Assembly: GCA_029268225.1 (NCBI GenBank)
Contig: JAJUGJ010000004.1
Location: 124,001 to 188,000, forward strand
DNA length: 64,000 nucleotides
Reading direction: 5' to 3'
Origin: Burkholderiales bacterium
GTDB lineage: Bacteria; Pseudomonadota; Gammaproteobacteria; Burkholderiales; Burkholderiaceae_C
Shown: piece by piece, positions 20,476 through 39,176 of the stretch
How positions within the stretch are numbered: the first letter of the stretch is position 1
Layout: every line of letters starts with the position of its first letter
The notes under the pieces: model-generated
Seen by the model: the letters and a program-made list of their open reading frames with translations, nothing else
The model's database searches: none
What the model was told of the DNA's origin: nothing
Translations under genes and position numbers: made by a program

Positions 20476-20910
20476 TCAGGGCCGCACGCCCGTCTCGGGC
20501 GGCGCTTCGGTGACGAAAGCCACGCGTTGCAGGCCCGCTTGCTGGATCGCGCCGATGAGCTCGGCGACACGGCCGTAGGGCACGCTCTGGTCGGCACGCA
20601 ACTGCACTTCGGTATCCGGGCGCTGGCTTGCCAGGGCACGGGCCCGGTCTGACAGCGCGGCCAGGGTGCTGGCTTGCTCGTCCAGGTACAGGCGGCCATC
20701 GGCACGCAAGGTGACTTGCATGGTGGCCGACGGTGCGGTGGTGACCGGGGCATCGGTCTGGGGGAGATCAAGCGGCAAGCGGGCCCCCAGCAGCGGCGCC
20801 GTGACCATGAAAATGATGAGCAGCACCAGCATGACGTCGATGAGCGGCGTCATGTTGATGTCGCTGAAGGGGCGTTGCCCCTGGGGGCGGGTCAGGCGGC
20901 CAAATGCCAT
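20476..20910 (-). CDS. exbD: ExbD/TolR-family proton-channel subunit
   Basis: A 144-residue inner-membrane protein with one N-terminal helix. INMTPLIDVMLVLLIIFMV carries the proton-path Asp of this family; a periplasmic TolR/ExbD domain follows (VTLRADGRLYLDEQ ... VQLRADQSVPYGRVAELI). Together with the ExbB-like gene 12 bp upstream it would harvest the proton motive force for TonB- or Tol-type work. No tonB, tolA, tolB or pal is nearby, so the assignment as ExbD rather than TolR is not certain. Confidence 0.88.
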   Translation of the reverse strand: MAFGRLTRPQGQRPFSDINMTPLIDVMLVLLIIFMVTAPLLGARLPLDLPQTDAPVTTAPSATMQVTLRADGRLYLDEQASTLAALSDRARALASQRPDTEVQLRADQSVPYGRVAELIGAIQQAGLQRVAFVTEAPPETGVRP

Positions 20911-20922
20911 GGTGACGGCACC

Positions 20923-21573
20923 TCAGTCGGGACGGACGAGCAAGGTGTCGCGCAGGTCGAGCGCAAAGCCTTCAAGGTCAGCCTCGCACGCAGCGATGCG
21001 TTTGCCAAACAGGTTGTAGGCGAGCACCGCAGGGATGGCCACCGCCAGGCCGGCAGCGGTCATGACAAGCGCCTCGCCCACGGGGCCGGCAATTTGATCC
21101 AGACCAGCCGAACCCGAGCGGCCGATGGCCTGCATGGCATGAAAGACGCCCCAGACCGTGCCGAACAGCCCCACAAAGGGAGAAACGGCGCCCACCGAGG
21201 CCAAGAGCACCTGCCCAGCCTGCAAGCGCAAGAGCACGCCTTGCAGGCTGTCTCGCAGCCGACGGGTGAGTTGTGCTTCGGGCATGGCACGGGTAGCCAA
21301 AGTGCCGGGGGCCTCGGGCACCTGCACTGCGTCAACCAAGGGCAGCAACACGCCGTCTCGGTCCAGCGTTTGCAGGGCAGAGCGGGCCGAGGCCAGGTCG
21401 GCGGCACGCCAGAAAGCCACGGTGCCGACCCGCAGGTCGCGACGCGCCCGCGCCAGCAGCCAGGCTTTCCAGAAGATGACGGCCCAGGTGCTGATGGACA
21501 TCATCAGGAGCACCAGGGCCACCGCACGACCCACGGTGTCGGCTTGCTGCCAGAACGGTGCCAAAGCCTGCAT
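20923..21573 (-). CDS. exbB: MotA/TolQ/ExbB-family proton channel
   Basis: A 216-residue protein with an N-terminal helix (VALVLLMMSISTWAVIFWKAW), a cytoplasmic stretch and a C-terminal helical pair containing SVGAVSPFVGLFGTVWGVFHAM, the ExbB/TolQ hallmark, and ALVMTAAGLAVAIPAVLAYN. It sits between dapB (23 bp upstream) and exbD (12 bp downstream) on the same strand, so bamE-dapB-exbB-exbD probably forms one transcript. A likely client is the TonB receptor at 33970, but that is inferred. Confidence 0.9.
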   Translation of the reverse strand: MQALAPFWQQADTVGRAVALVLLMMSISTWAVIFWKAWLLARARRDLRVGTVAFWRAADLASARSALQTLDRDGVLLPLVDAVQVPEAPGTLATRAMPEAQLTRRLRDSLQGVLLRLQAGQVLLASVGAVSPFVGLFGTVWGVFHAMQAIGRSGSAGLDQIAGPVGEALVMTAAGLAVAIPAVLAYNLFGKRIAACEADLEGFALDLRDTLLVRPD

Positions 21574-23688: not shown

Positions 23689-24657
23689 TCAGAGCCCGCC
23701 GCGCTCCATGGCGCGCTGGTGGCGCTCGGTGAATTCCTTGTAGGTGTCGATGCCGCGCAGTTGCAGCACGGTGTTGCGCACGGCAGCCTCGACCAGCACA
23801 GCCAGGTTGCGCCCAGCATCCACCGCGATCACGGCCTTGCGCACGGCCACCCCCATCACCTCTTCGTACAGGGGCTCGTAGGGCAGACGCTCGAACTCGC
23901 GCTCCATGGTCTCCTTGCGTACCAGGTGCACGATGAGTTTGAGCCGCATCTTGCGACGCACGGCGGTTTCGCCAAAAATCGCCTTGATGTCGAGCAGGCC
24001 GATGCCGCGCACTTCGAGCAGGTTCTGCAGCAGTTCGGGGCAGCGGCCTTCGATGGCGGTGCGTGAGACGCGGTACAGGTCGACGGCATCGTCGGCCACC
24101 AGGCCGTGACCGCGTGAAATGAGCTCCAGACCCAGTTCGCTCTTGCCCAGGCCGGACTCACCGGTGAGCATGACGCCCAGCCCCAGGATGTCCATGAACA
24201 CCCCGTGACGGGTGATGCGCTCGGCGAAATGGTGTGTGAGGTAGCCGCGCAGCACGTCGATGACGTGACCGGCCGGTTCTTGCGTGACGAACAGCGGGAT
24301 GCCCGCGCGGCCACACATGGCCATCAGCTTGTCGGAAGGCGCCTCGCCATCGGCGACGACCACGACGGGAGGCTCCAGGGTCACGATGCGCTGGATGCGG
24401 CGTTCCTGGTCTTCGGGGGTGGCATTCGAGAAGTACGCGGTTTCGCGTCGGCCGACGATCTGCACCCGGTAGGGGTGGATGTAGTTGAGGTAACCCACCA
24501 GATCCGCCGCCGACTGGGCGAACTGCACGGCCGCTTCATCGAACCGGCGCTCGGGGTGGGCGTGTCCGGCCACCCATTCCCAGTGCAAAGCCGCACGGTT
24601 GGCTTCGAACAGCGCCTCGGCGCTGATGATGGCAAGGTCTTTGAGGCTCACGGGCAT
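23689..24657 (-). CDS. hprK: HPr kinase/phosphorylase
   Basis: Phosphorylates and dephosphorylates Ser of HPr-type PTS carriers. The 322-residue protein has an N-terminal domain (residues ~1-130) and a kinase domain with P-loop [34 protein letters not shown] and the HprK signature [15 protein letters not shown]. The start [11 protein letters not shown] at 24657 was chosen over an upstream frame start. It follows ptsN on the same strand, as in many betaproteobacteria, where HprK works with an incomplete PTS for regulation and not for sugar import. Confidence 0.95.
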
Positions 24658-24718
24658 ATGGTTGGGGGGCGTCCTTCTCGGAACCTCATGATGCCGCAAC
24701 CGCGAACCCGCAGCTGCG

Positions 24719-25189
24719 TCAGGCTACCGATTTGAGGGGCTGCCAGCGTTCAATGAGGCCATGCACCTCGGCGGCATCGGCCTCGGCGCGCAAGCGCTCA
24801 CGCAGTTCACGGTTGGAGAGCATCTCTGCGATCTCGGAGAGGATCTCGAGGTGGCTCTGGGTGGCTGCCTCGGGCACCAGCAGGAATATCAGCAGGTTGA
24901 CGGGTTCGTCGTCCGGCGCATCGAAGGGAATCGGGTGGCTCAGGCGGATGACCGCTGCCAGGGGGTGTTTCAGTCCCTTGATGCGGCCATGCGGGATCGC
25001 CACGCCATGCCCCAGTCCCGTGGACCCCAGGCGCTCCCGCGCAAAGAGGTTGTCCGTGACCGTGGCCCGCGCGATGGCATGCTGGTTCTCAAAGAGCAGG
25101 CCTGCCGCTTCGAAGACGCGCTTCTTGCTCGTGGCGTCCACGTCCACCAGCACCTGGCTGACGGGAAGGATGGCGGAAAGACGGTTCAT
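24719..25189 (-). CDS. ptsN: PTS IIA-Ntr regulatory protein
   Basis: A 156-residue EIIA of the mannitol/fructose-type fold. The phosphorylatable His is in [16 protein letters not shown], and [27 protein letters not shown] matches the family core. The nitrogen-PTS relays phosphate for regulation of potassium, nitrogen and carbon functions. The start MNRLSAILP at 25189 fits the family length. The 259 bp between it and hpf contain an intrinsic terminator, so ptsN-hprK probably has its own promoter. Confidence 0.94.
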
Positions 25190-25344
25190 CTGAGTACAAG
25201 CAGGCTGGGCAGCAAAGGCCTTGCCCCGACGACGGGGAGGGGTGAGCGGCGGATTATAGGAAAAAGTGAACCCCTTGGCGGGCAATTGTGCGCCGAATGC
25301 TGCGCCGCAGCAAGGGGCGCACCCACCCCGGCCTGGCACCCCAT

Positions 25345-25368
25345 GAAAAACGGCCCCAGAGGGGCCGT
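25345..25368 (-). terminator. Intrinsic terminator after hpf
   Basis: Minus-strand stem CGGCCCC (25367-25361) with GGGGCCG (25357-25351), loop TCT, then TTTTTC. It separates hpf from ptsN-hprK. Confidence 0.82.
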
Positions 25369-25448
25369 CAACTTGGTGCTCACCTGCGCTGGCGACCCGC
25401 AATCAGGTCGCACCAAGCACACTGCTCGCCACGCGGTCGTCCGCGCGC

Positions 25449-25799
25449 TTATTGCATGGCATCCATTCCAAGGTCATGGTGCTTGATGGATTCGTGGTGG
25501 TGATCCTGGGTACGTTCCTTGTGACGACAAACCTGGCGATCCAGCTTGTCCATCAGTTGATCAATGGCGGCATACAGGTCTTCGTGGGCGTTCTCCACGA
25601 AAATGTCCTTGCCTTTGACATGCAGGTTCACTTCAGCCTTCTGGCGACGTTCCTTTTCCTTTTGTTTCTCCACGGACAGGATGACGTTCACATCGACAAC
25701 CTGATCGAAATGACGGGTCACTCTCTCCAGCTTGGTCATGACGTACTCGCGCAGGGCTGGAGTCACTTCAAGATGGTGGCCACTGATCGTCAAATTCAT
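25449..25799 (-). CDS. hpf: Ribosome hibernation-promoting factor / sigma-54 modulation protein
   Basis: A 116-residue short-form [30 protein letters not shown] (cited in parts), [28 protein letters not shown], and a His-rich C-terminal tail ([12 protein letters not shown]). It binds the 30S decoding centre in stationary phase and supports 100S dimer formation. The ATG at 25799 has a strong AAAGGAGG site. In relatives it is preceded by rpoN; here the upstream gene is a divergent PglL-type ligase and no rpoN is in view. Confidence 0.95.
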
Positions 25800-26022
25800 A
25801 CTGCCTCCTTTCGAGAGCAGGGGGTGTTGAAAACAACCGGCTGACTGTGCACCTGAGCGGTGCATAAAGTGCCACCCGGGAATCCAGTGTGCCCATCTCC
25901 AAGCCTGATGACAAGGGCGTGACATGGGGGTTTGTCTGGATCACGCGCCCTGGAGGGAGAAAAGATTTTGTCTGTTGAGACAGGTCAATCGAAGCGCGGC
26001 GAAGGCCTGACAATAGCGGCCC

Positions 26023-27822
26023 ATGAGCACACCTGATGTTGGCAACTCGCCTCTGGGGCGCACGCCTGTGGCCCCGACTCCGGCCGGATGGGCGTGGGCG
26101 CTGCTGGCCGTTGTGGCCCCGACGCTGATTGCCGCCCACGACCCGCCTTCCGTGACCTTTTACAACCAGGCGCTGGCCGTGCTGGGCTGGGGCTTGTGGC
26201 TAGCATGGATGGGCGGCTCGCCGCTGGCCGTGCCCACCACCGCCACGCGCGGCCAGGCTGCTGGCTGGGGCCTGACTGGCATGCTGGGCGCCTTGGCACT
26301 GGCAGCCTTCGGCGCCAGTGTGTTCGGCACGCTGCCGGTGGGCTTGAGCTTGATGGGCGGCGGCATGAGCTTGGCCGCCTTGCTGGCCCTGCGCAGCGGT
26401 TGGGCACAAGGACAAGCGGCCTGCCGCGACACGATGGCCGAACTGTTCTTCGGTGCGCTGGCCGTGGCCGGCGGCGTGGGTCTGCTGCTGGCTGCTGTGC
26501 AGGTGTTCATGCCCGAATGGGCCGATGGCACGCTGATCGCCCGACCCAATATGGCCGGCCGTGCGGTCGGCAATCTGCGCCAGCCCAATCACTTCAGCAC
26601 CTTGCTGGTGTTTGCCTCGGCCGGTTTTGCCTGGCTGGGTGCACGCCAGCGTTTGCGCCCAGCGCTGGCCGCACTGGGCGTGGCGTTGTGCATTGCGGGC
26701 ATCGTGTGGACCGCGTCGCGCACCGGCATGGTGGCCATGGTGTTCCTGAGCGCCTGGGGCCTGCTCGACCGACGCCTGCCTCGTGTGCTGCGCCTGACCT
26801 TGGCTGCGGCACCACTGGTGTACGCCGCCTGGTGGGGCGGCATGTGGTGGCTGTCCCATGCCGACCGAACGGTGGCCTTTGCGGGCGAGGCACGGTTGCA
26901 CGATGGCAGCGACATTTCGTCGTCGCGCTTCAAGATCTGGGCCAATGTGCTGAGCCTGATTCAACAACACCCATGGTGGGGCGTGGGCTACGGGGAGTTC
27001 AACCTGGCTTGGACCTTGACGCCGTTTCCAGATCGGCCGCTGGCCTTTTTCGACCACACCCATAACGTGGTCCTGCAATGGGCCGTGGAGTTGGGCATTC
27101 CGGCGGCCATCGTGCTGAGCCTGTTGGCGCTATGGGGCTGGTGGGCGCTGGTGCGCCCCGGCACCGGCAGCGAACGGCGTAGCGGCGAGCCCGCGACCGT
27201 GGGCGCCGCGGCCGTGATCGTGACGACGGCAGGCCTGCACAGTTTGCTGGAGTACCCGCTGTGGTACAGCTACTTCCTGCTGCCCACGGCGTTTGCATGG
27301 GGGCTCGGGCTGGGGGCACGGGAGGGGGTGGGCACCGCCGTTTCGGTCTCCCGCCTGCCGCGCTGGCGGACCGCTGGCGGCGTGGTGATGGCCGTGATGG
27401 CCCTGTGGTGTGCGCTGGACTACCAGGCCGCCGCCAACATCTACGCACCCCGCCCCGGAGCCTCGACGCTGGAGCGCCGCATTGCCTTTGCCAAACCCAT
27501 GCCTTGGTGGGGCTACCAGGCGGACTACGCCGATGTGACCGTGGGAGGGGATGACGAGCCCAGCCGCCCCCCGCAGGCCTTCCGCCGCACACTGCACAAC
27601 CTGCTGGACGCCCGCCTGATGATGGCCTATGCCCGGTCTTTGGCCGAGCATGGCGAGGTCGACAAGGCGCGCTTCGTCGTGGCTCGCCTCAAGGAGTTCC
27701 GCAATGGGTCGGCCAAGGCTTTCTTCGCGGCTTGCGAGCGTCCGCCAGCAGCAGCAGGCACGGCGCCGTTCCAATGTGCGCCGCCCCAGCGGCATTACCC
27801 CTGGCGCACGTTGTTGCCCTGA
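26023..27822 (+). CDS. PglL/Wzy-type O-oligosaccharyltransferase (O-antigen ligase family)
   Basis: A 599-residue polytopic membrane protein with about 10-12 helices. The signature RQPNHFSTLLVFASAGFAWLG and the periplasmic Wzy_C region WWGVGYGEFNLAW ... FDHTHNVVLQWAVELGIPA are typical of PglL-type ligases, which move lipid-linked glycans onto pilins or other proteins. The C-terminal ~130 residues form a soluble domain (PWWGYQADYADV onward), as in PglL_A/Wzy_C_2 members. No pilin or glycan-synthesis gene lies next to it. Protein glycosylation is the best guess, with O-antigen ligation the alternative. Confidence 0.85.
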   Translation: MSTPDVGNSPLGRTPVAPTPAGWAWALLAVVAPTLIAAHDPPSVTFYNQALAVLGWGLWLAWMGGSPLAVPTTATRGQAAGWGLTGMLGALALAAFGASVFGTLPVGLSLMGGGMSLAALLALRSGWAQGQAACRDTMAELFFGALAVAGGVGLLLAAVQVFMPEWADGTLIARPNMAGRAVGNLRQPNHFSTLLVFASAGFAWLGARQRLRPALAALGVALCIAGIVWTASRTGMVAMVFLSAWGLLDRRLPRVLRLTLAAAPLVYAAWWGGMWWLSHADRTVAFAGEARLHDGSDISSSRFKIWANVLSLIQQHPWWGVGYGEFNLAWTLTPFPDRPLAFFDHTHNVVLQWAVELGIPAAIVLSLLALWGWWALVRPGTGSERRSGEPATVGAAAVIVTTAGLHSLLEYPLWYSYFLLPTAFAWGLGLGAREGVGTAVSVSRLPRWRTAGGVVMAVMALWCALDYQAAANIYAPRPGASTLERRIAFAKPMPWWGYQADYADVTVGGDDEPSRPPQAFRRTLHNLLDARLMMAYARSLAEHGEVDKARFVVARLKEFRNGSAKAFFAACERPPAAAGTAPFQCAPPQRHYPWRTLLP

Positions 27823-27858
27823 TGGCGGGCAGATGGCCGCACAGGTGGCGATCGCGCC

Positions 27859-28335
27859 TCAAGCCGCCTGCCAGTGCCCGGACTTGCCGCCCTGCTTTTC
27901 CAGCAGCCGCACGTCGGTGATGACCATGCCTTTTTCAGCGGCCTTGCACATGTCGTAAATGGTGAGCAGGCCCACCTGCACGGCGGTGAGGGCCTCCATC
28001 TCGACGCCCGTGGGGCCCACGGTCTGTACGGTTGCGCGGCACGTGACCGCACTGGCGGCCTCGTCCAGCTCAAACTCAACGGCCACCTTGGACAGCGCCA
28101 GCGGGTGGCACAGTGGAATGAGGTCGGCGGTGCGCTTGGCACCCTGGATGGCGGCGATGCGCGCCACACCGAGCACATCGCCTTTGCCGGCACGGCCTTC
28201 CGCGATCAGGGCGAGCGTGCTGGGCAGCATCACGATGCGGCCTTGCGCCACCGCCACGCGCACGGTGGCGGGCTTGGCAGACACGTCCACCATGTGGGCC
28301 TGGCCCTGGGGATCGAAATGGGTCAACTCGGTCAT
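27859..28335 (-). CDS. moaC: Cyclic pyranopterin monophosphate synthase
   Basis: Second enzyme of molybdenum cofactor synthesis, acting after MoaA. The 158-residue protein shows [70 protein letters not shown] and the catalytic Lys-rich segment. The ATG at 28335 matches the family start. It is convergent with the PglL-type gene and divergent from the M48 protease gene 120 bp away. No other moa genes are nearby. Confidence 0.96.
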
Positions 28336-28454
28336 GGGTGGCGAACAGCAAAGCTGCGTAAAGACAGTCAGGAAACCGAACTTTGAGACGCCCTGAGGCT
28401 CTCAAGGCCGTGGCTTCGCAGCATACTGCACCGTTCCATTCGAGTTTTGCGTTC

Positions 28455-30125
28455 ATGGTCCTGCCCCCCATCCTGACTGGCTGCACCAGCCGGCCCTGCA
28501 GCCCGCATGCCCGCTCGCGTACCGCGCGGCGCTGGGCCCTGGCCGTGGCCGTGGCGTGGTGTGCCGCCCCGCTGAGCACCGGTGCCCTGGCCGACAGCCC
28601 CACCGTCCCGGCGGCGCCCGTGACCTTGCCTGCCCTGGGTGACTCGGTAGGACAAGACCTGTCAGCTCGGGCCGAGCGTCGGCTGGGTGACCGCATCATG
28701 CGCGCCATCCGCGGCGACCCGGCTGTGATCGACGATCCCTTGCTGCTGGAGTACGTGCAAGCGTTGTGGGGCGACTTGCTGAGCGCGGCACGGCAGCGGG
28801 GAGAGATCGGCCCGGATCTGGAAGACAGTCACGCGTGGGAACCCTTCCTGGTGCGAGACAAGTCGGTGAACGCGTTTGCGTTGCCGGGGGGCTACATCGG
28901 CGTCCACCTGGGTCTGATGGCGATGACCACGACAACCGACGAGCTGGCCTCGGTGCTGGCGCACGAGTTGTCGCACGTGACCCAACGGCACATTGCCCGC
29001 ATGATGGGGCAGCAGGCGCGCAACTCGTGGATGAGCATGGCCTCGATGGTGCTGGGCATCTTGGCGGCCAGCCGCAACCCGGCGGCCGCACAGGCGCTGA
29101 TTTATGGTGGGCAGGCCGCCACCATCCAGGGACAGTTGAATTTTTCGCGCGACATGGAGCGCGAGGCCGACCGCGTGGGTTTCACGGTGCTGTCCGAGGC
29201 AGGCTTCGAGCCCGGTGGCATGGCGCGCATGTTCGAACACCTGCAACAGGCCTCGCGCCTCAATGACGACGGCAGCTTCCCCTACCTGCGCACCCACCCG
29301 CTGACCAGTGAGCGCATTGGGGAGGCACGTGCCCGCATGGGGCTGGATGGCTGGACCCAGGCCCTGCGAGCTCAACCCTCGGAGCACCAGCGTGCGGCCT
29401 GGCATGCGCTGATGTCTGCCCGCTCGCAGGTGCTGATGGACCCGCGCAGCGACGCCCTGCACCGGCTGAGCAACCTGACCCGCGCCGAGGAGGCGCGCCC
29501 CTTGGCGCAGGTGCGTCTGCACTACACGGTTGCGCTGGCCAAACAGCGCATCGGGCAAGTGAGTGGCGCGGCGGCGGCGATGACTCAGGCACGCCAGGCA
29601 GCCTTGAGCTTGCCGGCGGCCCAGCAGCCGCTGGTGTGGCGCATCCTGACACTGAGCGAATCAGAAGGCCTGCTGGAGGCACAGCGCCCCGCCGAAGCTG
29701 CCGCCACGCTGATGCGCCCCGCCCCCCCATCCCCCGTCACGGCGCCACAGGCTGGCCGCCCGGAGTTGCTGCTGCATGCTCGACTGGCGCTGGCACAACC
29801 GGACGGCACCAGTCAGGTCGACGGATGGCGTGACGCCGCCAATCGGCTACAGACCCACGTCAGCACGCACCCGCAAGATGCCGCGGCCTGGGCACTGCTG
29901 TCCGAGCTGTGGCGTCGATTGGAGCAGCCCTTGCGCGCGATCCGCGCCGATGCCGAAGCCACGGCCGCGCTGGGGGACCTGCCGGGCGCCATTGAGCGGA
30001 TTCAGGGCGCCCATCAGCGCTTCCGGCGTCCGGATGCGGCCGACGTGATCGAGCTCAGCGTGATGGACGCACGACTGAAGGCGTGGCAGCGTCAACAGCG
30101 CGATGACCTGCGCGACGAACGCTAA
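28455..30125 (+). CDS. Periplasmic M48-family metalloprotease (BepA/YfgC-like)
   Basis: A 556-residue exported zinc protease. The signal peptide (long n-region, helix ALAVAVAWCAAPLSTG, cleavage at ALA before DSPT) is followed by the M48 catalytic domain with HELSHVTQRHI at 170-180 and the third ligand Glu in DMEREADRVG, and by a C-terminal TPR-like helical region. BepA-type proteins degrade or help assemble stalled outer-membrane beta-barrels such as LptD. Given the number of barrels encoded nearby, an OM quality-control role is likely. The ATG at 28455 was preferred to the TTG at 28383. Confidence 0.9.
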   Translation: MVLPPILTGCTSRPCSPHARSRTARRWALAVAVAWCAAPLSTGALADSPTVPAAPVTLPALGDSVGQDLSARAERRLGDRIMRAIRGDPAVIDDPLLLEYVQALWGDLLSAARQRGEIGPDLEDSHAWEPFLVRDKSVNAFALPGGYIGVHLGLMAMTTTTDELASVLAHELSHVTQRHIARMMGQQARNSWMSMASMVLGILAASRNPAAAQALIYGGQAATIQGQLNFSRDMEREADRVGFTVLSEAGFEPGGMARMFEHLQQASRLNDDGSFPYLRTHPLTSERIGEARARMGLDGWTQALRAQPSEHQRAAWHALMSARSQVLMDPRSDALHRLSNLTRAEEARPLAQVRLHYTVALAKQRIGQVSGAAAAMTQARQAALSLPAAQQPLVWRILTLSESEGLLEAQRPAEAAATLMRPAPPSPVTAPQAGRPELLLHARLALAQPDGTSQVDGWRDAANRLQTHVSTHPQDAAAWALLSELWRRLEQPLRAIRADAEATAALGDLPGAIERIQGAHQRFRRPDAADVIELSVMDARLKAWQRQQRDDLRDER

Positions 30126-30155
30126 ACCACTTTCCCCGCATGGTCTTGCCATAAT

Positions 30156-30170
30156 TGCGAATGATTCGCA
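30156..30170. promoter_or_regulatory. Fur-box-like palindrome 1
   Basis: TGCGAATGATTCGCA is a perfect 7-1-7 palindrome inside ATAATTGCGAATGATTCGCA. It lies between TTGCCA (30146-30151) and CATTAA (30169-30174), exactly where a repressor would block a promoter reading rightwards. The left half (TAATTGCGAAT) is shared with the site before the TonB receptor at 33863. Confidence 0.72.
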
Positions 30171-30180
30171 TTAACATGGC

Positions 30181-30304
30181 AACAAGCGCGAACGAGGTCA
30201 CCTTGTCCGCGCCAGCGACACCAGCCATGGTGTAGGTGGGGTGTGGGGCTCCACCTTCTTTTCCTTCACCGCCAAGGGGCCTGCCTCTTGGCGGTATTTT
30301 TTTG
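30181..30304 (+). ncRNA. Candidate Fur-controlled small RNA (or tiny-peptide transcript)
   Basis: The 415-bp gap between the M48 protease and terC holds a self-contained unit: a promoter-like pair around Fur box 1, about 120 nt, then a strong intrinsic terminator at 30268-30304. A U-rich stretch (CTTCTTTTCC, 30255-30264) just before the terminator stem is the kind of site Hfq binds. The only frame is a 19-codon ORF, 30176-30235, without a Shine-Dalgarno and with its ATG at or before the predicted start of transcription. The layout resembles RyhB/NrrF-type iron-responsive sRNAs. No known sRNA sequence was recognised. Confidence 0.5.
30268..30304 (+). terminator. Intrinsic terminator upstream of the terC riboswitch
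   Basis: Perfect 9-bp stem ACCGCCAAG (30268-30276) with CTTGGCGGT (30287-30295), then ATTTTTTT. It lies before the terC leader, so it ends transcription coming from the Fur-box promoter. Confidence 0.88.
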
Positions 30305-30345
30305 GGGTCTCGTGTCGCCTGCCGACGGACATCCTTCATCTTCGG

Positions 30346-30482
30346 TATCATCCACGCTGACCGAAGGGGGAGTAGCACCACGCACCAGCGCGGGTGTCGC
30401 CTCGTCAGCACGTTGGGAGCCCGTCCAGGCCACCCATCCGGGGCACACGACAGACGCCCGTCTGTTTTGCAAGACCTTTCGG
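30346..30482 (+). promoter_or_regulatory. yybP-ykoY-type (Mn2+) riboswitch in the terC leader
   Basis: CCGAAGGG (30361-30368) pairs with CCTTTCGG (30475-30482) to close the element. GGGGAGTAGC (30367-30376) directly after the 5' strand and GCAAGACC before the 3' strand are conserved marks of the yybP-ykoY family, which senses Mn2+ and precedes terC/mntP-type genes. A -10-like TATCAT at 30346-30351 would start transcription just before the aptamer. Downstream, GCGGTCC and GGGCCGC (30494-30514) form a hairpin between aptamer and the ribosome-binding site, so the control may be translational. Assigned by eye. Confidence 0.85.
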
Positions 30483-30540
30483 CGCTTCATGCAAGCGGTC
30501 CATGGTGGGCCGCCCATGTTCGTGCCGACTGGAGACTTTC

Positions 30541-31512
30541 ATGCATACCCTGGCGCCCATGTGGCTGTGGTCCGTTTTCATTGTGTTTGTCTTGCTGGCC
30601 TTGTTCGTGGACTTCGTGGTCCTGAAAAAACAAGGCGCTCATGACGTCACCGTGCCCGAGGCGATTCGCTGGTCGGCCATCTGGGTGGCGCTGAGCTTTG
30701 CCTTCAACGGCCTGCTGTGGTGGGCCTTCATGCAAGAGCAAGGTGCCGCCGTGGCCAACACCAAAGCGCTGGAGTTCCTCACCGGCTACCTCATCGAGAA
30801 GTCGCTGGCGGTCGACAACATCTTTGTCTTCCTGATGATCTTCACCTACTTCTCGGTGCCCTCGGCTTACCAGAAACGGGTGCTGATGATCGGCATCATC
30901 GGCGCCATCGTGTTGCGCACGGTGATGATCCTGGTGGGTGGCTGGCTGATTTCGCAGTTCCACTGGATCCTGTATGTGTTCGGCGCCTTCCTGGTGCTGA
31001 CCGGCGTCAAGATGTGGTGGGCGGCCGACCAGGAGCCCGACTTGGAAGACAACCCGGCCTTGAAGATCCTGCGCAAGGTGATGCCGGTGAGCAAGCACTT
31101 TGACGGCGAGCGCTTCTGGACCGTGCAGAACGGCGTGCGCATCGCCACCCCGCTGTTGCTGGTGGTGGCCCTGGTGGGCTTCACCGATGTGATCTTTGCC
31201 GTGGACTCGATCCCCGCCATTTACGCCATCACGTCCGACCCCTTCATTGTGCTGACGTCGAACATCTTCGCCATCCTGGGGCTGCGCGCGATGTTCTTCC
31301 TGCTGGCCGCAATGGCCGCCAAGTTCCACCTGTTGAACTATGGCCTGGCCGTGATCCTGGTCTTCATCGGCACGAAGATGCTGCTGATCGACCTCTACAA
31401 GATCCCGGTCCTGGTGTCGCTGGGCGTCGTCATTGGCATCCTGATCATCACGATGGTCTGGAGCGTGAAGACCGCGCCGAAGATTGGCGGCAGCAAGACC
31501 GTCGAGCTGTGA
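30541..31512 (+). CDS. TerC/Alx-family membrane protein (probable Mn2+ exporter)
   Basis: A 323-residue protein with about nine membrane helices. It has conserved acidic residues in the membrane (ALFVDFVVLKK, EKSLAVDNIFVFLMIF, FTDVIFAVDSIPAIYAIT) that are diagnostic for TerC. Family members such as MeeY/MeeF and Alx export or regulate Mn2+; tellurite resistance is the historical name. The Mn2+-type riboswitch in its leader supports a manganese role. The ATG at 30541 follows CTGGAGACTTTC. The gene opens the metal block and is followed by the Fur-controlled feoAB. Confidence 0.93.
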   Translation: MHTLAPMWLWSVFIVFVLLALFVDFVVLKKQGAHDVTVPEAIRWSAIWVALSFAFNGLLWWAFMQEQGAAVANTKALEFLTGYLIEKSLAVDNIFVFLMIFTYFSVPSAYQKRVLMIGIIGAIVLRTVMILVGGWLISQFHWILYVFGAFLVLTGVKMWWAADQEPDLEDNPALKILRKVMPVSKHFDGERFWTVQNGVRIATPLLLVVALVGFTDVIFAVDSIPAIYAITSDPFIVLTSNIFAILGLRAMFFLLAAMAAKFHLLNYGLAVILVFIGTKMLLIDLYKIPVLVSLGVVIGILIITMVWSVKTAPKIGGSKTVEL

Positions 31513-31525
31513 GGATGCAGACCAG

Positions 31526-31548
31526 ACGAGAATAATTCTCGTTACAAT
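31526..31548 (+). promoter_or_regulatory. Fur box and promoter of feoAB
   Basis: ACGAGAATAATTCTCGT (31526-31542) is a perfect 8-1-8 palindrome of Fur-box type, immediately followed by the -10-like TACAAT (31543-31548). Fur-Fe2+ bound here would block feoA-feoB transcription. Confidence 0.85.
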
Positions 31549-31607
31549 GGTCGGATTGGTTTCTATCGGCCACGCGCGTCTGACGCGTGGTCGCATGCCG
31601 TCTGCCC

Positions 31608-31892
31608 ATGTCTGCTCACACCTTCGCCGCGGCCACCGGGCCACTGAGCCAGTTGCCATTGCACCGTCGGGCCACCGTCACCGAGGTGACGCCTCCCGAA
31701 CACAGCCCTGAATGGGGGCGCTTGCTGGCTGAAATTGGCTTCATGCCCGGCGAGCAAGTGCAGATCATGGCGCGGGCCATGCCCGGGGGCGATCCACTGG
31801 TGGTGCGGGTGGGAGACTCCACCTTTGCCCTGCGTCGCGCCGAGGCCGACTGCATCGGCGTGCGCGTGGACGATCCGAAAGTCGCCTCATGA
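31608..31892 (+). CDS. feoA: Ferrous iron transport protein A
   Basis: A 94-residue SH3-like cytosolic protein that supports FeoB. LPLHRRATVTEVT opens the fold, and RLLAEIGFMPGEQVQIMARAM with DPLVVRVGDSTFALRRAEADCI is the FeoA pattern. The ATG at 31608 gives the normal length. Its end overlaps the feoB start by 4 bp (ATGA). A Fur box lies about 65 bp upstream. There is no feoC. Confidence 0.95.
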   Translation: MSAHTFAAATGPLSQLPLHRRATVTEVTPPEHSPEWGRLLAEIGFMPGEQVQIMARAMPGGDPLVVRVGDSTFALRRAEADCIGVRVDDPKVAS

Positions 31893-33817
31893 AAGAGTCT
31901 GTCGTTCACGTGCACCGCGGGGGGCCGCTGGTTGCCCTGGTCGGGAACCCCAATTGCGGCAAAACCGCCCTTTTCAACCGCCTGACGGGCAGTCATCAGA
32001 AGGTGGCCAACTATGCCGGGGTGACGGTCGAGCGCAAGGAAGGCCGCCTGGTGACACCGGCCGGCAAGACCTTGCGTTTGCTGGACCTGCCAGGCGCCTA
32101 CAGCCTGCACCCACGGTCGCTGGACGAGTCGGTGACCGTGAATGTGCTCAATGGCCACGCGAAGGGTGAGAAGCGCCCGGATCTGGTGGTCTGCGTGGTG
32201 GACGCCACCCACCTGCGACGCAATCTGCGCCTGGTGCTGGCCGTCAAGCGCCTTGGGTTGCCTTGCGTGGTGGCCCTGAACATGGTGGACTTGGCCCAAC
32301 GCCGTGGCCTGGACATCGACCCCGACGCCCTGAGCGAGGCTTTGGGCGTGCCGGTGGTGAAGACGGTGGCGGTGCACGCCCAAGGTGCCGTTGCGCTGAG
32401 CCAGTTGCTCGATGACGCCCGCATCTGGGGTCGAACCACGACGGACACGGCCGGCGCCGCCCTTGTCGGCCAGCCTGCACCGCCAGCAACGGCCGCGCCA
32501 GCCACACCCGAAGCCGACTCGCGAGGCGACCATGAAGCCGTGCGCAGCATCCTGCAAGGGCTGGGTTTGGACACCAGCGTGCCTCACCTCCTGAGCGACC
32601 GGATCGATCGGGTGGTGCTGCACCCGATCGCCGGCCCCCTGTTGCTGGCGGCCGTGCTGTTCCTGGTGTTCCAGGCGGTGTTTGCCTGGGCCGAAACCCC
32701 GATGAGCTGGATCGAGGCGGCCACGTCCTGGCTGGGCACCGGCTTGGGCGCCCTGCTGCCGGAAGGATGGCTGCGCAGCCTGGTGGTCGATGGCCTGGTG
32801 GCCGGCCTCGGCGGCGTGGTGGTCTTCCTGCCTCAAATCCTGATCCTGTTTTTCTTCATCCTGATTCTCGAAGAGTCAGGGTATCTGCCACGCGCGGCCT
32901 TCCTGCTGGACCGCCTGATGGGCGCTGTGGGCTTGTCGGGGCGCTCCTTCATCCCCCTGTTGTCGAGCTTTGCCTGCGCGATTCCGGGGATCATGGCCGC
33001 GCGCACCATCGCCAACCCGAGAGACCGCATCGTCACGATCCTGATCGCGCCGCTGATGACCTGCTCCGCGCGCTTGCCGGTGTATGCGCTGTTGATCGGC
33101 GCGTTTGTGCCTGCTCGCGAGGTGGCGGGGGGCCTGTCTTTACAGGGTCTGGTGTTGTTCAGCCTGTATGTGGCCGGCATTGCCGGCGCCATGGCGGTGG
33201 CCTGGGTGCTCAAGCAGTTCACCACCAAGGGACAGGTGCGCAGCCTGATGATGGAGCTGCCCAATTACCACTGGCCGAACCCGCGCAACATCGCCCTGGG
33301 ACTGTGGCAACGCGTGCAGATTTTCATGCGCCGCGTGGGGGGCATCATCCTGACGCTGACCGTGTTGCTGTGGTTCCTGTCGAGCTTCCCCGCCCCGCCC
33401 ACAGGCGCGACAGGACCTGCGATCGAGTACAGCCTGGCCGGGATGCTGGGCCGAGCGCTGGCTGTGGTGTTCGAACCGATCGGTTTCAACTGGCAGATCA
33501 GCATCGCCCTGGTGCCAGGTCTGGCGGCCCGCGAGGTGGCGGTCAGTGCGCTGGGCACGGTGTATGCGCTGTCAGCCGTGGCCGATGACGCCAGCGATGC
33601 CCTCATCCCCATCCTGCAGCAGGACTGGTCCCTGGCCACGGCACTGTCGCTGCTGGCCTGGTATGTGTTCGCACCGATGTGCCTGAGCACACTGGCCACC
33701 ATCAAGCGAGAAACAGGTGGCTGGAAGATGGCGCTGATCGCCGCAGGCTACCTGTTCGCCCTGGCCTATGCCGCATCGTTCGTGACCTATCGCGTGGCCT
33801 TGATGCTGGGTGACTGA
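31889..33817 (+). CDS. feoB: Ferrous iron transporter B
   Basis: A 642-residue Fe2+ importer. The N-terminal G domain shows VALVGNPNCGKTALFNRLTG (G1), LLDLPGAYSL (G3) and ALNMVDLAQ (G4), followed by a helical GDI-like spacer. Two gate domains follow, with SGRSFIPLLSSFACAIPGIM and LVPGLAAREVAVSALGTVY. It is shorter than E. coli FeoB (773 residues), mainly in the spacer and C-terminal region, and has no FeoC partner, as in many betaproteobacteria. It is translationally coupled to feoA and Fur-controlled. Confidence 0.97.
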   Translation: MKESVVHVHRGGPLVALVGNPNCGKTALFNRLTGSHQKVANYAGVTVERKEGRLVTPAGKTLRLLDLPGAYSLHPRSLDESVTVNVLNGHAKGEKRPDLVVCVVDATHLRRNLRLVLAVKRLGLPCVVALNMVDLAQRRGLDIDPDALSEALGVPVVKTVAVHAQGAVALSQLLDDARIWGRTTTDTAGAALVGQPAPPATAAPATPEADSRGDHEAVRSILQGLGLDTSVPHLLSDRIDRVVLHPIAGPLLLAAVLFLVFQAVFAWAETPMSWIEAATSWLGTGLGALLPEGWLRSLVVDGLVAGLGGVVVFLPQILILFFFILILEESGYLPRAAFLLDRLMGAVGLSGRSFIPLLSSFACAIPGIMAARTIANPRDRIVTILIAPLMTCSARLPVYALLIGAFVPAREVAGGLSLQGLVLFSLYVAGIAGAMAVAWVLKQFTTKGQVRSLMMELPNYHWPNPRNIALGLWQRVQIFMRRVGGIILTLTVLLWFLSSFPAPPTGATGPAIEYSLAGMLGRALAVVFEPIGFNWQISIALVPGLAAREVAVSALGTVYALSAVADDASDALIPILQQDWSLATALSLLAWYVFAPMCLSTLATIKRETGGWKMALIAAGYLFALAYAASFVTYRVALMLGD

Positions 33818-33862
33818 GCGCGGCAAGACGTGCATGAATACAACGCTCCGCTTTACTTCGTA

Positions 33863-33885
33863 ATTGCGAATCGTTATCATTTGTT
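33863..33885 (+). promoter_or_regulatory. Fur-box-like site before the TonB receptor
   Basis: The stretch AATTGCGAATCGTTATCATT, with partial dyad and the GATAAT-type hexamers of Fur boxes, lies about 90 bp before the receptor ATG. Its left half equals that of Fur box 1. The rest of the 152-bp gap is AT-rich and probably holds the promoter. Confidence 0.7.
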
Positions 33886-33969
33886 ATTGATTTCAATCAA
33901 GGGCACCCTCTTGGTGCATCTCATCCGTCTTCCGCGCTTTCATTCAGATCTCTCATCTTTCAACGCCTC

Positions 33970-36261
33970 ATGACGACCTCCAACCTGAAACGCCCGCGCA
34001 GCCTGCGCATCGCGCCCACCGCCGCCGCCACGCCTTTCGCGCGCACGACCCTGGCCCTGGGTGCCTCGACAGCCCTGTTGATGCCTGCACTGACCTCGGC
34101 TCAGGAAGTGGTGGAAGTCAAGCCGGTGAGCATCACCGTGCGCGCCCCCGATCACAACCCGCATGGTGAGCCCGGTGCCGCCTACAAGGCCAAGACGTCC
34201 GGCGACGAGCGCCGCGTGAAGCCACTGGCCGAAACGCCCGCCACGATCACGGTGCTGACGCAGCAACAGTTGCTGGACACCGGCCGCACGGACTTGCGCG
34301 AGATCCTGCGCACGCAACCCGGCATCACGCTGGGCACCGGTGAGAACGGCAACGCCTTTGGCGACCGCTACATCATCCGCGGCCAGGAGGCCCGCTCCGA
34401 CGTGTTCGTGGACGGCCTGCGCGACCCAGGCATGACCGTGCGCGAATCCTTCGCCACCGAGCAAGTGGAAATCACCAAGGGACCCAGCGCGACCTTCGCA
34501 GGCCGTGGCGCCACCGGCGGCGCCGTGAACTCCATCACCAAGCAGGCCACCACCGATGCGGACTTCACGAAGTTGTCGGCCGGTGTGGGCACCGATGACT
34601 TCTACCGCGTCACGCTGGATGCCAACCACGCCTTCAGTGACGACACCGCCTTGCGCGTGAACCTGTTGAAGGCCTACCAGGAAGTGCCAGACCGCGGCCC
34701 GGCCGACCGGGAACGCCAAGGGGTCGCCCTGTCGCTGCACCACAAGTTGACAGACAAGCTCAACGTCACGGCCGACTACTACCACATGGAGGGTGAAGAC
34801 AAGCCGGACCTGGGGTCGTGGATGGTGGGCTCGCCAGCGTCCGCGGCGAAGGTGGTCAAGAACCCACCCGTCTATGTGCAAGACACCGATTACCTGCGCT
34901 CCAACATCGACACCTACACGGTGCGGCTGAATTACCAGCACGATGACGACACGAAGCTGAGCAACCTGACCCGGTATGGCACGACCCGCAATCGTTACCT
35001 CGTGACCGGTGCGCGCGCCTCCACCTATGTGAACGACGATGGTGAGGCCGCCCTGGCTCGCCTGAGCAACCATGCCGGCGGTCAGGATGTCGCCTACTTC
35101 GCCAACCAGACCAACCTGTTCTTGAACCGCGACATCGCGGGCATGAAGCACAACATGATCTTCAGCCTGGAGCTGTCGGATCACCTGGTGCGCAACGGCC
35201 AGTTCACGGTCACCCCTCTGAGCAGCGGCAATTGCGGCTCGGCCACCACCTGGTGCGTCTTTGAAGATGGCCAAGGCGACGCCTACCTGCGCCAGGCCAC
35301 ACGCACGGGCACCCGCAGCCTGTGGAAGAACAAGACCATTGGCGTCTCGGCCATGGATGCCGTGGATGTGACCGACAAGTGGACCGTGTTCGGTGGCGTG
35401 CGCATCGACCGGATCGATTACAGCAACGAAAACGGCGGCCTGCGCTACGCGCTTCACGACAACCTGACCAATTACCAGCTCGGCACCACCTACAAGTTCC
35501 TGCCCAACGCGAACGTTTACCTGAACTACAGCACCGGCAGCGACTTCAACGGCGGCGAGTCGGATGTGACCAGCTGCGGCTACGGTGGTCTGTGCCTGCC
35601 CAGTGGCACCACCAACGACGAGAAGCTGGATTACTTCTCCAACTTCAGCAGCCCGGAGAAGTCCCGGAACATCGAGTTGGGCACCAAGTGGGACCTGATG
35701 GGCGGCAAGCTGCTGGCCACCGCAGCCGTGTTCCGCGTCACCAAGTCTGACGTGATGGAGCAGGCCACGCTGGACAACTACTCGCAAGAAGGCGCACTGA
35801 ACACCGGCAAGTACCGCGTGCAAGGCTACGAACTGGGTCTGAGCGGCAACATCACCAGCAAGCTCAGCGCCCATGCTGGCTATGCCCGCCTGAACTCAGA
35901 GCTGTTGCAGTCGCTGAACGCGGCCAACGTCGGCAAGGAAATGGCCAACATCGCGCGGCACAGCGCCTCGGTGCTGCTGAGCTACAAGCTGACGCCCAAG
36001 TTCACCTTTGGCGGCACCTACACCTACCAAAGCAGCAAGTTCGCGGGCAGCCCTGAATCGGTGTCCAACGATCGCAAACTGCCGGGCTATGGTTTGGTCG
36101 ACCTCTTCGCCAGCTACAAGTTCAACCGCAACCTGAGTGCACGGGTGAACATCGGCAACGTGTTTGACAAGGAACACTACACCGCCGCCTACACCTCAGG
36201 CACATTTGCCTACCTGGGCGATGCCCGCAATGTTCGCGCGACGCTGAATTACGATTTCTGA
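33970..36261 (+). CDS. TonB-dependent siderophore receptor (Fiu-like)
   Basis: A 763-residue outer-membrane receptor. An export signal ends near LTSAQ; the plug domain runs about 70-190 (AETPATITVLTQQQLLDTGRTDLREILRTQPGI in part, RGQEARSDVFVDGLRD, VEITKGPSATFAGRGATGG). A 22-strand barrel follows, ending in ATLNYDF with C-terminal Phe. It resembles catecholate receptors of the Fiu/PiuA type, and the PiuC-type gene downstream supports that, since Fiu-YbiX and PiuA-PiuC are known pairs. The natural ligand is not determined. It has a Fur-box-like site upstream and is probably energised by the exbBD pair or a distant TonB system. Confidence 0.94.
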   Translation: MTTSNLKRPRSLRIAPTAAATPFARTTLALGASTALLMPALTSAQEVVEVKPVSITVRAPDHNPHGEPGAAYKAKTSGDERRVKPLAETPATITVLTQQQLLDTGRTDLREILRTQPGITLGTGENGNAFGDRYIIRGQEARSDVFVDGLRDPGMTVRESFATEQVEITKGPSATFAGRGATGGAVNSITKQATTDADFTKLSAGVGTDDFYRVTLDANHAFSDDTALRVNLLKAYQEVPDRGPADRERQGVALSLHHKLTDKLNVTADYYHMEGEDKPDLGSWMVGSPASAAKVVKNPPVYVQDTDYLRSNIDTYTVRLNYQHDDDTKLSNLTRYGTTRNRYLVTGARASTYVNDDGEAALARLSNHAGGQDVAYFANQTNLFLNRDIAGMKHNMIFSLELSDHLVRNGQFTVTPLSSGNCGSATTWCVFEDGQGDAYLRQATRTGTRSLWKNKTIGVSAMDAVDVTDKWTVFGGVRIDRIDYSNENGGLRYALHDNLTNYQLGTTYKFLPNANVYLNYSTGSDFNGGESDVTSCGYGGLCLPSGTTNDEKLDYFSNFSSPEKSRNIELGTKWDLMGGKLLATAAVFRVTKSDVMEQATLDNYSQEGALNTGKYRVQGYELGLSGNITSKLSAHAGYARLNSELLQSLNAANVGKEMANIARHSASVLLSYKLTPKFTFGGTYTYQSSKFAGSPESVSNDRKLPGYGLVDLFASYKFNRNLSARVNIGNVFDKEHYTAAYTSGTFAYLGDARNVRATLNYDF

Positions 36262-38162: not shown

Positions 38163-39176
38163 ATGATGAAACCACTGCTCCTCTCGCTCTCCCTGCTCGC
38201 AGCCAGCATGGGCGCCATGGCCAAGGATCAGGTTTTGAACCTGTACTCGGCACGCCACTATCAAACCGATGAAGCGCTGTACAGCAACTTCACCAAGCAG
38301 ACCGGCATCAAGATCAACAGGCTGGATGGTCGTGCGGAAGAGTTGCTGGAACGCATCCGCAATGAAGGCGCCAACAGCCCTGCAGACGTCCTGATCACCG
38401 TCGACGCTGCCAACCTGGCCGTGGCCGATGCGTGGGGCGTCTTCGCGCCTGTCAAATCCAAGTTACTGGAAGCACGCATTCCAGCTCACCTGCGGTCGGC
38501 GACATGGTTTGCGTTTTCCACACGCGCCCGCGTGATCATCTACAACCGCAAGCTGCTCAAGCCCACCGACGTCGCCACCTACGAGTCCCTCGCCGACCCC
38601 AAACTGAAGGGACTGGTGTGCAGCCGCTCGGGCAACCACCCCTACAACCTGTCTCTGGTGGCTGCACTGGTGGCGCACAACGGCGAGGCCAAGACGGAAC
38701 AATGGGCCAAGGGCGTGGTCGCCAACTTCGCAACCCCACCACGTGGCGGTGACAACGATCAGATCAAGTCGGTGGCCAGTGGTGAGTGCGGTGTGGCCGT
38801 GTCCAACACCTACTACCTGGCGCGCTTTCTCAATTCAGAGCGCGTGGAAGAACGCAATCTGATCAAGCGCCTGGGCATCGTCATGCCGAACCAGAGCAGC
38901 TATGGCACCCACGTCAATGTCTCGGGCGCCGGTGTGGTCAAGACCTCCAAGAACAAGGAAGCGGCCGTTCGCTTCCTGGAGTACCTGGCCAGCGATGAGG
39001 CCCAACGCTATCTGGCCGAAGGCAACAACGAATGGCCTGCCGTGCCCGGGGTCAAGATCGACAACGAGGGGCTGGAAGACCTCGGCACCTTCAAGGCCGA
39101 CACCCTGCCGCTGAGCGTGCTGTCCAGCCAGCTGGTCCCGGCGCAGAAACTGCTGGATCGCGCCGGCTACCGCTGA
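38163..39176 (+). CDS. Periplasmic Fe(III)-binding protein of an ABC importer (FbpA/FutA-like)
   Basis: A 337-residue substrate-binding protein. Signal peptide MMKPLLLSLSLLAASMGAMA, mature start KDQVLNLYSARHYQTDEAL. Iron-binding proteins of this class use several Tyr; YSARHYQTD and SNTYYLARF carry the expected ones. AARFLEYLASDEAQ-like VRFLEYLASDEAQRYLAEGN is the usual C-terminal helix. No permease or ATPase gene follows (the next gene is on the other strand), so the import machinery must lie elsewhere or be shared. It is last in the receptor-oxidase-piuC run, 35 bp after piuC. Confidence 0.93.
   Translation: MMKPLLLSLSLLAASMGAMAKDQVLNLYSARHYQTDEALYSNFTKQTGIKINRLDGRAEELLERIRNEGANSPADVLITVDAANLAVADAWGVFAPVKSKLLEARIPAHLRSATWFAFSTRARVIIYNRKLLKPTDVATYESLADPKLKGLVCSRSGNHPYNLSLVAALVAHNGEAKTEQWAKGVVANFATPPRGGDNDQIKSVASGECGVAVSNTYYLARFLNSERVEERNLIKRLGIVMPNQSSYGTHVNVSGAGVVKTSKNKEAAVRFLEYLASDEAQRYLAEGNNEWPAVPGVKIDNEGLEDLGTFKADTLPLSVLSSQLVPAQKLLDRAGYR

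Follow-up and report, generated by a model that had tools for sequence, protein, structure and literature searches.

In the Burkholderiales bacterium assembly GCA_029268225.1, the intergenic stretch that runs from an M48 protease gene, whose stop is at 30125, to terC, which starts at 30541, very probably encodes a Fur-controlled non-coding RNA. The preferred reading, given a probability of about 0.7, is that this is a Fur-repressed, lineage-specific small RNA (sRNA) that acts in trans. All coordinates refer to the window, the 64,000-nt stretch at positions 124,001 to 188,000 of contig JAJUGJ010000004.1. The host genome (3.54 Mb; G000 below) belongs to the Aquabacterium group, and the genomes of two sister species, G209 and G221, contain the unit at the same place. 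The predicted sRNA is ~123 nt long (30181-30303, plus strand), its start being placed ~7 nt past the -10 hexamer and its end in the T tract of an intrinsic terminator. A first reading of this DNA, the original prediction, had proposed a separate Fur-controlled unit here, and the conservation, shared fold, Fur box and terminator found in all three species support that proposal.

Promoter, Fur box and terminator

The unit opens with a -35-like hexamer, TTGCCA (30146-30151), separated by 17 bp from the -10 hexamer CATTAA (30169-30174; both plus strand). This promoter-like pair had been described originally and is present in the sequence. It was missed by a consensus promoter scan that required 9 of 12 matches, with A and T in set positions of the -10. 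A perfect 7-1-7 Fur palindrome, TGCGAATGATTCGCA (30156-30170), had been placed in the spacer; it is present but not wholly contained there, as its last two bases overlap the -10 hexamer. All 15 of its columns are invariant in the three species, as is the -10 hexamer. The Fur box, predicted from sequence, is located at the unit's own promoter. Beginning ~95 nt past the -10 hexamer, the terminator (30268-30303, plus strand) consists of a hairpin (30268-30295) with a 12-bp stem and a 4-nt loop, plus T7. Its closing pair is A-U or G-C depending on the species. The 9-bp stem first ascribed to this terminator was an error, the 9-pair hairpin being a separate element before the U-rich run (30234-30256).

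The strict Fur pattern YGMKAATNATTMKCR occurs at 3 sites in the 3.54-Mb genome, and the reversed-pattern control at 0. The first site is that of the sRNA unit and the second lies before feoA. The third lies between the genes for a di-haem cytochrome c peroxidase and a TonB-receptor-like protein; the TonB plug domain of the latter scores 22.3 bits, just below the Pfam cut-off of 23.9. Within the 64-kb window, TGMKAATNATTMKCA is found at 4 sites with at most 2 mismatches, versus 0.61 expected. With feoAB lying downstream of terC, the neighbourhood can be described as an iron cluster. A Fur-like site with one mismatch, TGCGAATCGTTATCA (33865-33879), is also seen upstream of a TonB-dependent receptor gene at ~33970-36261.

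Conservation and predicted fold

Comparison of the three species separates the unit sharply from its surroundings. The 30 bases after the M48 stop, upstream of the Fur box, have 10/30 invariant columns and the spacer downstream of the terminator has 19/55, while the Fur box and -10 region are invariant throughout (23/23). Conservation drops over the next 8 bases (3/8) and in hairpin 1 (15 of the 26 columns at 30187-30212). It then rises to 22/22 for the linker and hairpin 2 (30213-30234), 22/23 for hairpin 3 (30235-30257), 9/10 for a U-rich linker (30258-30267), 24/28 for the terminator hairpin and 7/8 for the U tract. Overall, the 91-nt core at 30213-30303 is invariant in 84 columns (92%). 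Fourfold-degenerate sites that are invariant in all three species amount to 135/267 (51%) in M48 and 88/145 (61%) in terC. The binomial tail for the core is 9e-18 or 8e-12; these values take sites as independent and ignore relatedness, and are read only as placing the core far above neutral.

Each of the three RNAs folds alone into the same four hairpins, three followed by the terminator, with the U-rich linker between. Fold z-scores are -4.9, -5.5 and -7.0 (200 shuffles each), with the terminator contributing part of the signal. In the alignment, 98.2% of the 114 cells pair, compared with 41-53% in controls in which the partners were slid. Hairpin 1 (30186-30212, plus strand, as are the elements that follow) is the most variable in sequence, and its stem is largely kept through compensating changes. 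Of its 11 pairs, two are changed on both sides, two on one side and one departs only via an unpaired cell, leaving 93.9% of cells paired. The two pairs changed on both sides are all except one of the 3 such pairs in the RNA. Hairpin 2 (ACACCA-GCCA-UGGUGU, 30218-30233) lies in the fully invariant segment, and its reverse complement resembles the start-codon context ACACC-AUG-GC. Hairpin 3 (30234-30256) has 9 pairs with one G-U to G-C change. The U-rich single-stranded linker (30257-30267) is unpaired in all three folds and may be an Hfq site; an Hfq gene is present in 3/3 genomes. Conservation and covariation in relatives had been suggested as a check on the unit, and its retention in both sisters, the 84/91 core, the shared fold and the three double changes answer in its favour.

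Distribution and origin

The unit appears to be confined to a single clade. A TerC search of 42 genus genomes gave a match in 36, and a second search gave 92 loci, 80 of which were retained. Strong matches to the 92-nt core and to the covariance model were found in 3/42 genus genomes. Among 30 terC loci from the first of these searches, 12 have M48 just upstream (>60% identity), of which 3 carry the unit and 9 do not. When the terC nucleotide sequences of 27 loci were placed in a midpoint-rooted tree, the carriers grouped together as one clade with a support of 0.991. This is consistent with a single gain, which is the simplest account. Loss of the promoter and terminator pair in close relatives with the flanking genes kept had been named originally as evidence against the unit. 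Nine of the 12 M48-terC loci are of this kind, but none of them belongs to the carrier clade, which points to a narrow distribution and not to a lack of function.

Wider searches gave no further homologue. At E <= 1 the covariance model matched 9/42 genus genomes and 45/399 family genomes. In the family sample the only strong match was the window genome, the sisters not being among the matches, and the 44 other genomes gave weak matches down to E 4.8e-4 that were judged to be chance. A Fur box with at most 2 mismatches adjoined covariance hits in the three carriers only, among 30 of the 53 family hits and 13/13 genus hits. The best match in a non-carrier (G229, E 5.7e-7) was rejected, being an inverted repeat that resembles a terminator and has no Fur box. 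Another, in A. lacunae (L204), was not counted as a homologue; the Fur box of the HemS gene is ~0.9 kb away from it. The next best core match in the genus (G211, 26 nt, E 6.7e-4) was set aside with no Fur box in its 3-kb locus. A DNA search of 200 family genomes gave matches in 16 (E <= 0.01), including the window genome; the remaining ones, at 22-43 nt and in some cases covering the Fur box alone, were discarded. Plasmid and phage records gave no match. As the family covariance search scored 8 candidates per genome under strict filters, it could have missed distant homologues. Absence is also not firm for the 11/42 genus genomes that are <90% complete or >5% contaminated.

Alternative explanations

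The conserved structure could instead belong to the M48 protease mRNA as its 3' untranslated region and terminator, whether this is an ordinary 3' end or gives rise to a released sRNA; the Fur box would then provide a second source. Since the terminator scan reported nothing from the M48 stop (30125) to hairpin 3, transcription of M48 is also expected to run on to ~30303 and end there. However, the Fur box and -10 hexamer are invariant while the 30 bases past the M48 stop are not (10/30), and 9/12 M48-terC loci have M48 without such a 3' end. This explanation is considered improbable.

The position of the unit directly upstream of terC also allows for a cis-acting leader, in which a Fur promoter reads through to terC and the hairpins and terminator serve as an attenuator. 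In A. fontiphilum (L048 and L076, a single contig by length) a Fur box does lie 87 bp before the terC match itself. Against this, the terminator is strong (12 bp, T7) and forms in both the minimum-energy and centroid folds, no antiterminator search having been made. An unconserved spacer (19/55) also separates it from the terC leader proper. A cis-acting role of this kind is rated very unlikely. The leader itself (30359-30481; GGGGGAGTAGC ... CGTCAGCACG ... GCAAGACCTTTCGG) is seen again in almost every stretch read upstream of terC, and 103 of its 123 columns are invariant in the three species. It is a likely riboswitch that by eye resembles the manganese (yybP-ykoY) type. The corresponding Rfam family, RF00080, was not reported in the window and did not reach its gathering score in 5/5 relatives; L102 gave a sub-threshold match (13.9 bits versus a gathering score of 45, E 0.086) and L055 none. 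A -10-like TATCAT past the terminator is identical in all three species by eye. In A. fontiphilum (L076) the usual leader is not seen in the 300 bases read upstream of terC, which, together with the Fur box there, hints at direct Fur control of terC in that species.

The unit might also be the decaying remnant of a Fur-regulated protein gene. In A. lacunae (L057), the counterpart site, flanked by M48 and terC, has a Fur box and then a gene of 285 aa whose product scores 25.6 bits for a HemS domain (cut-off 24), followed by a hairpin resembling a terminator; the motif CTTTCCCCGCATGG after the M48 stop is common to A. lacunae and the window. A remnant is nevertheless difficult to reconcile with a core conserved above fourfold sites and a fold kept in three species. 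At 48% identity, M48 from A. lacunae is also more distant, and no similarity between the unit and the HemS gene was seen by eye, the only comparison made. The chance that this account is correct is judged to be very small.

Finally, a 19-codon open reading frame (30176-30235, plus strand), which had originally left a tiny-peptide reading open and whose ATG follows the -10 hexamer in all three species, is rejected as a conserved gene because a one-base difference breaks the frame in both sisters, where it runs open through the terminator, while no Shine-Dalgarno sequence is visible by eye and the ATG lies ~5 nt upstream of the expected transcription start. Within the stretch examined, the three species share just one closed reading frame, of two codons, and a short one ending PATPAMV is present in the window and G209 and absent in G221.

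Proposed mechanism and candidate targets

A Fur-repressed sRNA in this position would respond to iron as follows. When iron is plentiful, Fur would be bound over the -10 hexamer, keeping the sRNA off. When iron is low, Fur would leave and an RNA of ~120 nt would be made, ending at the 12-bp terminator. The U-rich linker would be suited to Hfq. The sRNA would most likely act in trans by pairing with the mRNAs of iron-using proteins, and the best candidate contact is made by hairpin 2 at the sodB and sdhC start codons, where it would block translation. Iron sparing by start-codon pairing is put forward tentatively.

Complementarity to these two genes is retained in the three species. Perfect matches of 9 nt to sodB (Pfam label Fe/Mn) and 8 nt to sdhC cover the start codon in 3/3 species. 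With a 24-nt segment around hairpin 2 as the query, sodB comes 13th and sdhC 25th among 248 G000 genes; their ranks are 8th and 6th of 83 in G209, and 4th and 1st of 22 in G221. In neither G000 nor G209 did any of 200 shuffled segments place the pair so high, and 0/200 did so for a six-gene set (sdhCDAB, sodB, leuC). The sdh, acn and sod genes had been named beforehand; the segment was picked after the accessibility-scored results were obtained and leuC was added later. Gene starts came from a home-made finder, and sdh and leu genes had deliberately been over-represented in the sample. For acnB, an 8-nt match was found in G209 and one of 6 nt in G221, the gene being at a contig end in G000. 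In G221, sdhB ranks 7th of 22.

Several results weigh against the proposed reading, both for the RNA itself and for its targets. The -35 is weak and its position is not conserved: the sisters have their best hexamers at spacings of 15 bp (TTGTCA) and 16 bp (TTGATC), with no change in the Fur box or -10. The unit was found in only 3/42 genus genomes. The covariation is supportive and not proof, because it comes from three sequences and 3 double changes also arise in 44/500 shuffles, and as many pair types in 111/500. When accessibility is included, sdhC and sodB rank 19th and 22nd of 75 genes in G000, 10th and 17th of 59 in G209, and 3rd and 5th of 20 in G221. Hairpin 3 then replaces hairpin 2 as the best contact, in G000 for sodB and in both sisters for sdhC. 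The start contexts ACACC-ATG and ATGGC are also common: 27/248 G000 genes start with ATGGC and can pair similarly, and 16/248 have matches of at least 8 nt, a minority of which were examined for iron use. The remaining succinate dehydrogenase genes sdhB, sdhA and sdhD rank 128th, 148th and 219th of 248 in G000. Taken together, sodB and sdhC are a lead that is only suggestive. The function resembling RyhB and NrrF that was originally proposed, and the target prediction against sdh, acn and sod suggested with it, gain from start-codon complementarity kept in 3/3 species, but this is not specific enough to prove function.

Other genes also show complementarity to the sRNA core, among them two for iron-sulfur assembly. 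In G000, an iscU-like (NifU_N) gene (L240:19092-19475, minus strand) has a 10-nt match at its start codon and an hscB gene (L240:18100-18621, minus strand) one of 8 nt. ExbB- and ExbD-family genes lie at 20476-21573 on the minus strand of the window, and complementarity to the core extends over 9 nt at the start codon of ExbD (CACCATGGC) and over 11 nt in the G209 gene that starts identically. The gene with the top accessibility score in the window, at 38208, encodes a solute-binding protein; it falls outside the top 12 in G209 and was dropped.

A wider account is more doubtful than start-codon pairing itself and is offered only as a possibility. According to this, an iron-sparing sRNA would have arisen independently, being gained once in an Aquabacterium clade in which no hemP was found. 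Its invariant hairpin, as the reverse complement of ACACC-AUG-GC, would be an anti-start-codon element that silences the mRNAs of sodB, sdhC and further iron proteins, perhaps also those of the iron-sulfur assembly genes iscU-like and hscB. A recent gain in one clade, together with RNA-less relatives that have the same flanks, would provide a natural before-and-after comparison of the origin of a regulator.

Comparison with known iron-responsive sRNAs

Fur-controlled sRNAs recur across bacteria with unrelated sequences, and the RyhB, NrrF and PrrF families are all represented in Rfam. To our knowledge, few have been described in Betaproteobacteria beyond NrrF and BrrF. No paper title on a Fur-controlled sRNA in Aquabacterium was found, as judged from titles and, for wider terms, from part of the results. 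Rfam gave 0 matches at E <= 1 in 24000-36000. At E <= 10 it gave 5 in 30100-30560 (best E 0.045), all far below the gathering score and none an iron sRNA.

One close comparison is BrrF of Burkholderia cenocepacia, an iron-related sRNA of 126 nt. In PMC7377471, its predicted targets include sodB and sdhC, whose fall in low iron depended on brrF. The Aquabacterium unit belongs to the same order and is similar in size; its own pairing with sodB and sdhC is only suggestive. It differs in that BrrF is described there as always downstream of hemP, apparently processed from hemP mRNA, and without its own Fur box (PMC7377471), whereas the Aquabacterium unit follows an M48 gene and has a Fur box at the sRNA promoter. 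No hemP match at E <= 0.001 was obtained in any of the three genomes (94.6, 97 and 75% complete), so no host gene for BrrF was found in the clade.

NrrF of Neisseria is a Fur-controlled sRNA that represses succinate dehydrogenase, for which a contact in sdhCDAB between sdhD and sdhA is suggested (PMC5586341). The unit resembles it in its predicted control and likely function, with sequences compared only via Rfam. It differs in the position of the contact, which here would be at the sdhC start, and in having no Rfam iron-sRNA match.

RyhB and PrrF have their own terminator, as does the unit. In E. coli RyhB and Pseudomonas PrrF a Fur site lies directly before the sRNA, according to PMC7377471, and the unit has this arrangement as well. 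Unlike them, it has no Rfam match and is confined to one clade among the genomes searched. As far as can be judged from sequence, the unit would work like a regulator of the RyhB/NrrF type, though it gave no match to those Rfam families. No Rfam family came near its threshold, and the sRNA is probably a local, lineage-specific representative of the Fur-controlled kind.
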